Source: Qipengyuania profundimaris
GTDB lineage: Bacteria; Pseudomonadota; Alphaproteobacteria; Sphingomonadales; Sphingomonadaceae
Length of the DNA: 64,000 nucleotides
Assembly: GCF_030717945.1 (NCBI RefSeq)
Contig: NZ_JAVAIM010000001.1
Span: forward strand, 1,177,131-1,241,130
Direction of reading: 5' to 3'
Below, piece after piece: positions 9,771 to 15,048 of this stretch; positions within the stretch are counted from its first letter, which is position 1; the number at the start of each line of letters is the position of its first letter. A model generated the notes under the pieces. It had not been told where the DNA came from and searched no databases. It saw nothing but the letters and a program-made list of their open reading frames with translations. A program made the position numbers and the translations under genes.

Positions 9771-10919
9771 ATGGGGGTCATCGAGACCGCGAAAACGCGC
9801 GCACGGCGCGTCGAGAAAGTCGTGGACTTGCCGCTGGAGCAGCCAATTGCGCTCCCGGTCGGGCGCATCCTCGATGGCGATTGCGTCGAAGCCATGCGCT
9901 CCATTCCAAGCGCCAGCATCGACCTCGTCTTTGCCGATCCGCCCTATAACCTCCAGCTCGGCGGCGATCTCAACCGGCCCGACGGCAGCCATGTCGATGC
10001 GGTGACCGACGATTGGGACAAATTCGACACCTTCAAGGCATACGACGATTTCACGCAGGCCTGGCTGGTGGAGGCCAAGCGCATCCTCAAGCCCGACGGC
10101 GCGCTGTGGGTGATCGGCAGCTATCACAACATCTACCGCGTCGGCGCGATTTTGCAGGACCTGGGCTTCTGGATCCTCAACGACATCGTCTGGCGTAAGT
10201 CCAACCCCATGCCCAATTTCCGCGGCACACGCTTCACCAATGCGCATGAGACGCTGCTGTGGTGTTCGCAGGGCGAGAAGGCGAAGTATCACTTCAACTA
10301 CCGCGCGATGAAGACGCTCAACGACGAGCTCCAGATGCGCAGCGACTGGGTCCTGCCGATCTGCAACGGGGCGGAGCGGCTGAAGGAGGGCGGCCACAAG
10401 GTCCACCCGACGCAGAAGCCCGAAAGCCTGCTCTACCGCGTGCTGCTCTCCACTACGGAGAAGGGCGACGTGGTGCTCGACCCGTTCTTCGGCACCGGTA
10501 CTACCGGCGCGGTCGCCAAGCGCCTCGGCCGCCAGTGGATCGGTTGCGAGCGAGAGGGCGTCTACCGCGAGGCGGCGCTGAAGCGAATCGCAAAGGAACT
10601 CCCGCTCGACGAAAGCGCGCTCACCACGATGCAGGCCGGCCGCAGCGCTCCCAAGGTGGCCTTCGGCGCGCTGGTCGAGAACGGCTACCTGAAGCCCGGC
10701 ACCGAGTTGTTCGACAAGAAACGCCGCTGGACCGCGACGGTGCGGGCGGACGGCTCGCTGGCATCCGGAAAGCAGACCGGCAGCATCCACGGCCTCGGCA
10801 AGGAGCTACAAGGCGCGCCCAGCTGCAACGGCTGGACCTTCTGGCACTACGAGACTGGCAGCGAGGTCAAACCGATCGACGCCGCGCGGCAGCTGTATCT
10901 GCTGGCCGTGGAAGATTAG
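9771..10919 (+). CDS. ccrM: Cell-cycle DNA adenine methyltransferase (GANTC)
   Basis: 382 residues of the CcrM group of beta-class N6-adenine methyltransferases. DPPYN (56-60) precedes the SAM-binding [10 protein letters not shown] (237-246), the beta-class order. HPTQKP (212-217) lies between them. The C-terminal 90 residues form the RAMA domain ([20 protein letters not shown] ... [11 protein letters not shown]) typical of CcrM and needed for DNA recognition. The start follows AAGGGGACGG. In Caulobacter the enzyme methylates hemimethylated GANTC late in the cell cycle. Codons 344-382 are partly repeated twice downstream (14331-14379 and 14930-15048). Confidence 0.95.
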
Positions 10920-11069
10920 CCGCTCCGCTTGTGTGGCGGAAAAGTCGCACTCACAGGTGCAAAATCGCGCAAGGGAGGTTTTTCGACCAACGGCCTTGCC
11001 TCGCACATCCCTTTTGGCTGTTAGCGCCCTCATTCGAATTTTCCGAATTACGATAATCGAGGGTTACAT

Positions 11070-14000
11070 ATGAAGTTTACGCCGATTGCCCTGAGCAAGC
11101 GCTCGATGCTGGCAAGTGCAGCCGTTCTTGCACTGGTCGCACCGATGAGCGTTCAGGCACAGGATGCCGCCGAAGACGAAACCTGCATCGACGAAGATGC
11201 CGACGGCGATTGCGACGATGTTGCCGGCGCGGTCGAGCAGAACGCCATTGTCGTTTCGGGCACGCGCATCCGCACCAACGAGTACGATTTTGCAAACCCG
11301 GTCGTCGCCATCGACGACACGGCCATCCAGAACAGCGGCGTTACGAACCTGACCGACTTCCTCACGGAAGCTCCGGCTCTTACCGGTTCCTACACGTCGA
11401 ACGACGGTTCGGGTGCCAATGCCGGCATCGGCGGGGTCGGCCTCAACCTCCTCGACCTTCGCAACCTCGGAACGCAGCGTACCCTGTTGCTGATCGACGG
11501 CCGGCGCCATGTCGCTTCCGTGCCGGGTTCGTCCTCGGTCGATACCAATACGATCCCGATCGACCTGATCGAGCGCGTCGATATCGTCACCGGTGGCGCC
11601 TCCGCCATTTACGGTGCCGACGCGGTTACTGGCGTGGTGAACTTCGTCACCAAGCGCGATTTCGAAGGCTATACGGTGCGCGCGCAGAGCGGCATCAGCG
11701 AGGAAGGCGATGGCTACACCGGCTTCATCTCGGCCACCGTCGGTACCAACTTTGCCGGCGGTCGCGGCAACATCGCCGCGAACTTCGAATACGGCCATGA
11801 CGACAATCTGCTGCTCTCGGACCGCCGCGAATTCGGACCCAGCTTCCGCTCGTTCTACGACAATCTCGACGACCAGGCTGCGGGTGACGATCCGAACGTT
11901 CCGGACCTGATCTTGGCATCGGACGTCAACTATCTGGACTCCAGCCCGATCGGTGCAATCGACGTGGACGGCGACTTCCTGCCTGATTTTCTCGGCGATG
12001 GCCGCCCCTATATTCCCGGCACCTTCCTGGGCAGCTTCTTCGAAAGCGGTGGTTCGGGCACTCCCGTGTCGACCTACAGCGGGGAAATCCTGCCGAAGAT
12101 CGATCGGTACATCGGCAATCTGCTTTTCAGCTACGAACTGACCGACAGCATCCGCTTCTTCGCGGAAGGCAAATATGCTCGGGTCGATTCGGAATCCTTC
12201 GGCCAGCCGACCTTCGATTTCTTCATCGGCGTGCCAACCGATAACCCGTTCATTCCGGACAACATCAACGATCCTGCAGTGAACGTCTTCGACGGTCTCG
12301 GCATCGTTCTTGTCACGGGTCGCGACAATCTGGACCTCGGCCGCCGCGGCGAAACCAACCGCCGCGAAACCTATCGCGGTGTCGCCGGGATCGAAGCCGA
12401 CGTCACCGACACGATCCGTTTCGACGCTTCCTATGTCTACGGCCAGTCGGATGCGACGGTCCGCCAGACGAACACGCGTTTCAACGACCGGTTCTATGCG
12501 GCGCTCGATGCAGTTGACGAAGGCGAATTCCTGACCGGCACGCCCAACGGCAACATCGTCTGCCGCTCGAACCTCACCGGCGATGCGACCAGCTCGAACC
12601 AGAACGTTACCGGCGCATTCTTCTTCGACGATTTCGACCAGTTGTCGTTCACGCCCGGCGCGAACAGCGGCTGTGTTCCGTTCAACATCTTCTCGAACGC
12701 TCAGGACCCGGCGTCGCTGGCCTTCATCAACACGACCGCGGTCGACACCAGCACGGTCAAGCAGCATGTCGCCACGGCGGCATTCAGTGGCGATTTCGGT
12801 GACGGCTTCGCGCTGTGGGGCGATCCGATCGGCTTCGCGCTCGGCGGTGAATATCGCAAGGAAATCAGCGAAAGCATTCCGGATCCGGTCAATACGACCG
12901 GCCTGACCTTCGGCAACGCGCTGTTCCCGGAAACGGGGTCCTTCGACGTCTATGAAGGCTTCGTGGAAGTGCGCGTGCCGATCGTTCAGGATCGTCCGGG
13001 CTTCTACGATCTTACCGCTAACGGCGCTGCCCGTGTATCGGAATATTCGACTGTCGGGACCACCTTCACCTATCAGGGCGGCCTGGTCTATGCTCCGGTT
13101 CCCGATTTCCGGATCCGCGGCACGTACGCCCAGGCGGTTCGCGCGCCGAACATCGGCGAATTGTTTGCTCCGTCCAACCAGACGTTCGCATTCATCGACG
13201 ATCCGTGTGCCTTCGACAATATCGACAACGGCAGTGCAACGCGCGAAGCGAACTGTACCGCGCTTCTTACCAATCTCGGCCTCACTCCGGCCCAGATCGC
13301 AGGCTTCACCGGCGATGCCGGGACCAGCCTGCCCGGCCTCAGCACCGGCAACGTCGATCTGAGCGAGGAAACTGCCAAGACCATCACTGTCGGTGCCATC
13401 TTCCAGCCCAGCTTCATTCCGGGCCTGGTCATGTCGGTCGACTATTACGACGTGGAAATCGAGGATGCGATTTCGACCCCGACGGCCAACACTCTGCTCG
13501 AACTTTGCGTCGATGCAGATACGCTGGACAACGAATTCTGCGACAATATCGACCGCACCCCGGTCGGCGCCGGGTTCGACCCCAACGATGCAGGTGTAGT
13601 CCGGGACTTCACCCTGCGCCCGCAGAACGTCGCGGCTTTCTCCACCAAGGGTGTCGACTTCTCGGTACGCTACCGTCAGCCGACCGACAATCTGGGGACG
13701 TTCAACTTCAGCGTGATCGGCAACCACCTGATCGAACTGAAGACGCAGGGCACCCCCGGCGCGGACATCGTCGAGGAAGCAGGCGTCCGCGGCGCGCCGG
13801 AATGGCAGGTCAATTTCGACTTCAACTGGACGCTCGACAACTTCAACCTGAATTACGGCATCAACTATTGGGACGAAACGCTTCGCTTCGCGCGTGCGGA
13901 CATCGAAGCTGATCCCGATATCGTTGCACCGGAATATCTGAAGATCGACGCCAAGTTCGTCCACGACATGCAGCTGCGCTGGACGACGGACGACGACATG

Positions 14001-14397: not shown

Positions 14398-14868
14398 TTA
14401 GGAGACAATACTCCATTGCCGCTCGATTTCGAAAGTCTCGATGATCTGCTCGAAAGCGCGGCAGTCGCTCATGGAATCAGTGGTGATGACCACTGTCAGA
14501 GGGATCTTTAAGCCTGACGAACGCGTCAGCGCGACCACGAATTTCTTGCCTTGGGGAGTTGCGATCAATCGTCCGGTGCCAGCCGCTATGGAAACCTTGT
14601 CACCGTTCTCCGCATCGAGCCAACCGTAATATCCGAGATATGGAGAGACGATGACCGGCCCTTCGGCGGTATCGACGGTAACGGGTAGGAAGCCATCCGT
14701 CGGAACGGCGGCTTTATTCGAGTGCACCGTGCCCGTGGTGGAAAAGGAACAGCAACCGGCAATCTCGACCGTCGGAGCGTTCCCGCCATCCGCGCTTGGC
14801 TCCGTTGGCGGAACAGTCGCGCAACTTGCCAGTGCAAGGGTACTGAGACAGAAGACTGACCTTTTCAT
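14398..14868 (-). CDS. Small lipoprotein of unknown function
   Basis: 156 residues from the ATG at 14868, chosen because it gives a lipoprotein signal (KRSVFCLSTLALASC, lipid-modified Cys16). The mature part has two adjacent cysteines (AGCCSFS) and a compact beta-rich body (GPVIVSPYLGYYGWLDAENGD). I recognise no family. No clear ribosome site precedes the start. The gene is enclosed between two ccrM 3'-end fragments and runs against them, so it is probably an acquired accessory gene. Confidence 0.65.
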   Translation of the reverse strand: MKRSVFCLSTLALASCATVPPTEPSADGGNAPTVEIAGCCSFSTTGTVHSNKAAVPTDGFLPVTVDTAEGPVIVSPYLGYYGWLDAENGDKVSIAAGTGRLIATPQGKKFVVALTRSSGLKIPLTVVITTDSMSDCRAFEQIIETFEIERQWSIVS

Positions 14869-14929
14869 CGTGTGGCAAAATGCTGCGGACAAAGTTTGCG
14901 TTCCCGTGCGTAGCGTTTCCTGCGTACAA

Positions 14930-15048
14930 AGGAGCTACAGGGCGCGCCCAGCTGCAACGGCTGGACCTTCTGGCACTACGAGAACGGCGGCGAGGTGAAG
15001 GCCGTCGTTGCCGCGCGGCAGCTGTATCTGCTGGCGGTAGAGGATTGA
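14930..15048 (+). pseudogene. Remnant of the 3' end of a ccrM gene (long copy)
   Basis: These 119 bases align without gaps to 10801-10919, the end of ccrM, with about 16 differences counted by eye (roughly 87% identity). The frame is kept and codes for the tail of the RAMA domain ([19 protein letters not shown] ... [12 protein letters not shown]) and a stop. Several differences are silent or conservative, which suggests descent from a functional but diverged ccrM allele, not a recent copy of the local gene. The rest of the gene is absent. The stretch 14869-15296 otherwise holds no convincing gene. Confidence 0.88.

Follow-up and report, generated by a model that had tools for sequence, protein, structure and literature searches.

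Genomic islands that enter tRNA genes or the ends of other genes by means of tyrosine integrases leave the target gene restored, with its old end displaced, and cross over at a fixed core. Many bacterial hotspots have no integrase, and the entry of genes at these has mostly been argued from statistics; in the work on hotspots without mobile elements (Oliveira 2017, PMC5635113) recombination is inferred statistically, whereas at the locus described here displaced gene ends mark single events. For the arrays of T6SS effector-immunity modules in Vibrio cholerae (Kirchberger 2017, PMC5361080), the authors propose a mechanism resembling homology-facilitated illegitimate recombination (HFIR). There, as here, a new module lies beside a conserved anchor, the 3' end of an old gene has been moved back together with its follower, and the arrays are serial, but the displaced element in Vibrio is an effector gene or domain with immunity cargo, whereas at the present locus a conserved methylase serves as anchor for unrelated cargo genes. 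In E. coli (Amarir-Bouhram 2011, PMC3240628), single crossovers of circularised DNA duplicated the end of the homologous gene, over 109–950 bp in 14 sequenced clones, and HFIR joins one end illegitimately, as a rule with a deletion and mostly at microhomologies of 3–10 bp. Partial duplication of a homologous gene end is common to those crossovers and to the present locus, although laboratory plasmids were employed in the E. coli study. The kind of process is known, from the Vibrio T6SS displacement arrays and from integrase-free hotspots; its location, the use of this gene as anchor, the arbitrary nature of the cargo and the preserved fossil record seem not to have been described in the literature searched, where no description of a ccrM end as an integration hotspot was found, an absence that carries little weight with journal coverage being partial.

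The window, a stretch of 64,000 nucleotides, is part of a 2.95-Mb genome in three contigs, and the locus within it comprises, in order, ccrM, a TonB receptor gene, a short ccrM tail, a small reversed ORF, a long ccrM tail, a 306-aa gene and folP. The 382-aa ORF at 9771–10919 (plus strand, stop codon TAG) is presumably an intact ccrM, encoding the cell-cycle DNA methyltransferase, the name being that given in the sequence-only reading and usual for this family. The cargo gene nearest to it (11070–14132, plus strand) encodes a TonB-dependent receptor with the Pfam barrel and plug domains, and belongs to a family (F2) present in seven loci. Behind this lies a displaced and decayed copy of the ccrM 3' end (copy 1; 14288–14379, plus strand; nhmmer E=3.2e-9, positions 157–240 of a 240-position profile), which is common to loci L125 and L122 of relatives. 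The second cargo, a reversed ORF of 164 aa (14398–14892, minus strand) that the sequence-only reading called a lipoprotein, has no Pfam match and was found only in its own genome among 249 family genomes sampled. A second displaced copy (copy 2; 14929–15048, plus strand; E=2.7e-32, positions 121–240 of 240), open over 38 codons, is followed by the 306-aa gene adjoining folP (15297–16217, plus strand), whose match to DUF6414 in Pfam is weak (18.9 bits, E=0.0014, below the cut-off of 25) and for which the sample of 248 other family genomes contained a single distant homologue (29%). The other core border is a 373-aa ORF (16512–17633, plus strand), traced in relatives by tblastn and carrying the name folP from the first reading. 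The receptor, the reversed ORF and the gene after the last copy were all present as that reading had described them, according to the ORF list and Pfam. By eye, a GGACxGTGTAACA-like stretch was seen upstream of folP at 16460–16500, and also in L204 and L205; it may be a conserved promoter of folP that leaves the interval free to vary.

The mismatch counts given previously for the two copies proved exact, with 16 ungapped differences in 119 positions between 10801–10919 and 14930–15048, and 8 between 10871–10919 and 14331–14379. Both tails do run in frame to a stop codon, as had been noted, the long copy extending for 38 residues without an internal stop and ending in TGA, and a profile search showed that the short copy continues, in decayed form, to about 14288. 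When the whole genome was searched with the ccrM end, the two copies were recovered with E values of 4.9e-37 and 1.7e-10, the next match having E=0.57. Among 334 gene ends tested in the window and in twenty 20-kb samples of the same genome (464 kb in total), ccrM was the only one to be followed by a strong copy of its 3' end, with weak copies behind two other genes (72% over 92 bp and 86% over 29 bp). The first of these pairs concerns the 145-aa ORF at L179:778-1215, the end of which is matched approximately 0.9 kb downstream, perhaps in a tandem paralogue.

The interval between ccrM and folP was then compared among relatives; at the genus level, some of their loci coincide exactly with ones from Qipengyuania citrea and Qipengyuania sp. 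XHP0207. The ccrM end is present in 58 of 60 genus genomes (no match in G006 and G037), and folP lies close to ccrM in 133 of the 138 loci first screened, the exceptions being L020, L039 and L172–L174. Of the 58 genus loci, 55 have folP within reach; their intervals range from 42 to 11114 bp (median 1727 bp) and fall into 44 gene-arrangement classes, two of which have no predicted genes; the cargo amounts to 59 gene families, 27 of them singletons, as called with a simple ORF picker rather than a trained gene finder, some of the ORFs being doubtful. At 77 other loci (70 named ones and a further seven) the median is 116 bp, with 20 loci above 300 bp. Overall, 66 of 126 loci have an interval above 300 bp once six duplicates are removed (72 of 132 with these included). 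The pair upstream of ccrM is steady, at 192–255 bp in 18 of 18 loci. Elsewhere in the table of neighbouring pairs, which includes the six duplicate loci, the pair around 21285–22122 is variable (above 300 bp in 44 of 99 loci), as is the folP–SDR junction at 17630–17633 (above 300 bp in 26 of 82 loci, up to 6.2 kb), the divergent pair at 19847–20164 is long but steady (220–492 bp), and no other tabulated pair attains the 11 kb of ccrM–folP. The variable cargo and the integration hotspot foreseen by the sequence-only reading are therefore borne out, with high gene turnover between two conserved genes and a steady pair in front of ccrM.

Further fragments of the ccrM 3' end had been anticipated at the cargo borders of relatives, and these were found. 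From 137 distinct loci, eight duplicates having been set aside, 105 intervals (180 kb; 53 from the genus and 52 others) were searched with a profile of the ccrM end, the remainder being five loci without folP in reach and 27 intervals under 60 bp. The search yielded 11 tails in nine intervals, eight of them at genus loci and one, L204, in another genus; the other 96 intervals had no tail, and neither had the five loci without folP in reach when intervals of at least 40 bp were searched to the contig end or to 10 kb. All 11 tails are on the coding (plus) strand and end no more than 17 bases from the gene end, and the two matches next in rank were a plus-strand one at E=0.13, away from the gene end, and a minus-strand one at E=0.92. 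Their starts lie 84, 92, 104, 120, 144, 151, 152 and 179 bases from the gene end, although decay may blur the start points of the oldest tails; the last ~180 bases of ccrM are the zone in which insertions occur. The 11 tails trace to seven or eight insertion events in two genera, namely an event common to the window, L125 and L122 (the sequence of the last of which starts inside ccrM), the window's second, those of L123, L150 and L137, one common to L142 and L146, and two in L204; the tails of L150 and L123 possibly derive from the same original event. A protein search matched 386 of 397 family genomes, four of them more than once, namely G000, G059 (L150), G118 (L204) and G341, the second match in G341 being on a different contig and having its own long open frame; this search covered few genus members and misses decayed tails. 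L204 and L205 were chosen after G118 had stood out, and are to that extent a biased sample. In L204 (interval 1–1858), two small cargo genes are each followed by a ccrM tail 0–4 bases past the stop codon, a very compact and cassette-like layout.

That the tails are displaced ends of ccrM is shown by relatives with an empty site. In L126, two small predicted genes directly follow ccrM, whereas L125 and L122 have ccrM, a TonB receptor gene, a tail and then an L126-like stretch; the tails and downstream sequence of L122 and L125 match the intact ccrM end and downstream sequence of L126 at 88% over 564 bp and 89% over 546 bp, respectively, the match running through the stop codon and for a further ~500 bp to the end of the query. 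Likewise, in L132 ccrM is followed by TrkA and TrkH, which in L150 lie behind a flavin monooxygenase gene and a tail, and in L123 behind genes for an S58 peptidase and a DUF418 protein and a tail; the L150 and L123 sequences match L132 through the stop codon (80% over 668 bp and 79% over 638 bp). Since each tail with its downstream sequence is colinear with the ccrM end and downstream sequence of a genome free of the insert, the tail is the old end of ccrM, displaced by cargo inserted in front of it. Intact ccrM, a displaced end at the far border and an empty site occur together for four tails (546–668 bp, 79–89% identity), in support of that much of the first reading. The window's own cargo is not among these, and an empty site is not demonstrable for it, its two inner genes having almost no relatives in the family samples. 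At L150, the sequence flanking the monooxygenase gene can be aligned with L145, L144 and L133 until roughly the start of ccrM sequence, L145 being the nearest donor-like flank but too diverged for junction microhomology to be read. In L118 and L131, a TonB gene precedes the histidine kinase gene that directly follows ccrM in L120; no tail was detectable behind the TonB gene in either, and the match to L120 starts 21–25 bases past the ccrM stop codon.

The cargo consists of transporters, receptors, regulators, enzymes, a GIY-YIG nuclease-domain protein and a ParDE pair, where these can be named. A ParD-like antitoxin family occurs in five intervals (L021, L036, L119, L124 and L152) and a ParE-like toxin family in three of these, the families having been defined by clustering with one member of each examined with Pfam. 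A Pfam scan of 70 cargo proteins, which represented 68 of the 75 cargo families and two genes of L204 (families F36, F38, F39, F43, F48, F50 and F55 and the intervals of L205–L210 and L172–L174 lay outside it), revealed no integrase, recombinase, transposase or phage family, extending to relatives the earlier remark that no integrase is visible; a mobility gene of unrecognised kind may be present among the 25 proteins without any match. Fragments of the folP 5' end, the mirror image of the ccrM tails, were sought in the intervals and none was convincing, the best in a complete interval being 31 bp (L130), with L039 discounted as a cut contig. GTA_TIM, the one GTA marker searched for, was absent from the window's genome in a search for which Caulobacter served as positive control. 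The genome does encode a ComEC-type protein, which says little on DNA uptake since 10 of the 14 control genomes, among them E. coli, have one too.

Comparison of third codon positions fits exchange of the TonB receptor unit between species. Between the window, L118, L125 and L009, identity in the TonB gene is 86–93%, above that in ccrM (79–84%) in six of six pairs and also above that in folP, which is 75–77% in five pairs; in the remaining pair, L118–L125, folP has 86% and TonB 87%. Against L141 and L010, TonB is less similar than the flanks. The ccrM genes of L142 and L146 share 98% identity in the 5' part and 91% in the last 200 columns, a single pair read without a genome-wide baseline, and a mosaic test of ccrM 3' ends revealed nearest-neighbour shifts that were clearest in the same two loci but carry no statistical weight. 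A donor search with the two inner window genes and the two L204 genes returned few homologues, and in the three genomes compared (G215, G106 and G030) the homologue lay far from ccrM.

We consider it probable that the ccrM–folP junction is a gene-acquisition hotspot without visible mobile elements, fed by homology-anchored donor DNA and leaving old ccrM tails displaced. Donor DNA from related bacteria, most likely non-mobile and carrying a ccrM 3' end with the donor's accessory genes, would recombine by homology within ccrM; the gene would stay whole, ending in recombined or donor sequence, with donor cargo next to it, and the recipient's old tail and downstream genes would be pushed back behind the cargo, repeated events stacking cargo and leaving a series of decaying tails. 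The displaced tails, the colinear empty sites of four of them, the turnover of cargo and the variable tail borders are observed; we infer that recombination was one-sided or circular and of RecA type, that the events followed one another in the direction of time assumed here, and that DNA entered by natural transformation or another route. Homology in ccrM as the point of entry, with an irregular far joint, is suggested by the TonB identities, the L142/L146 pattern, the varied tail starts and the lack of a recombinase match. By analogy, either of two known routes may account for the product: a single crossover of circularised DNA, or HFIR, the arrays of which share with this locus the old end and its follower kept behind new cargo beside a homologous anchor. 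The different cargo in L150 and L123, in front of the same TrkA–TrkH pair, counts for displacement. That no tail exceeds 179 bp is not predicted by random joining alone and counts against this explanation, as do the lack of a clear folP mirror image and the closeness of the L150 tail to its own ccrM; on the tail length, our guess is that longer direct repeats were lost by recombination.

Site-specific integration of small elements, with an attP equal to the ccrM 3' end and a tyrosine recombinase that works in trans or has meanwhile disappeared, would also leave the gene whole in front and its old end displaced, as at tRNA sites, and would suit the compact cargo, the L204 tails that start right at cargo stop codons and the 25 of 70 scanned proteins without a Pfam match. 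We nevertheless regard it as improbable, given tail starts that vary between events without a constant crossover point, the lack of a recombinase family in the cargo scanned, the tail-less TonB genes of L118 and L131, and nameable cargo of ordinary chromosomal function; unlike at tRNA or gene-end islands, neither a fixed crossover core nor an integrase was found at ccrM–folP. The original proposal of a circle bearing a foreign 3' end at a fixed site of tRNA type is not supported, on the first three of these counts, although a circle is possible in the form of circularised donor DNA recombining by homology, without an integrase.

Copying of the ccrM tail within the genome, by slippage or by tandem duplication and deletion, with cargo trapped between the copies, would be consistent with the L150 tail, whose closest match is the ccrM of its own genome (92% over 177 bp). 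However, such duplication leaves unexplained the empty-site-like sequence behind the tail with different cargo in L150 and L123, and the long window tail is closer to another species' ccrM (92%) than to its own (88%), as are the tails of L122, L123, L125 and L142, and that of L137 by one point; the L146 tail is about equally close to both (82 and 83%), and all tails are too short for a resolved tree. The expectation that fragments would be nearest to ccrM of other species therefore held for most tails, and the converse finding, which was to speak against the reading, applied to L150. For the four tails with an empty-site match local duplication is already disfavoured by that match, and overall it has, in our estimation, only a slim chance of being correct. 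Retention of the tails for a function, be it as a transcription or recombination signal or as a CcrM C-terminal peptide, might be considered for copy 2 of the window and the first of the L204 copies, both open in frame, but is very improbable in view of internal stops, indels or a lost stop codon in the tails of L122, L123, L125, L137, L142 and L146, and of the 96 of 105 intervals with no tail at all.

Under the preferred explanation of homology-anchored acquisition, copy 1 of the window may have taken part in a later exchange. Its stop codon has been lost in both L125 and L122 (TGA to CGA), and the window and L125 sequences differ at 12 of 217 bases, seven of these within the last 49 bases of the copy (Fisher P=0.006). 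The 5' half is the old tail common with L125, whereas over the last 49 bases the window copy resembles functional ccrM more than L125 does, and the downstream genes switch just there. This concentration of differences and of ccrM-like letters suggests that a later crossover inside copy 1 brought in the small ORF, the second tail and the 306-aa gene. More tentatively, and as an idea that we hold to be rather doubtful, the locus might be a self-renewing platform in which the ccrM end delivered by each insertion anchors the next exchange, producing an integron-like array of ordinary genes with no integrase; copy 1 looks like an anchor reused in this way. What the displaced ends of this one core gene provide, in several species, is a mark of single events together with their order and borders, which makes gene gain without an integrase directly testable in apparently harmless marine bacteria; the locus is a record of serial gene acquisition, with old ccrM tails as its fossils and without a visible mobile element.
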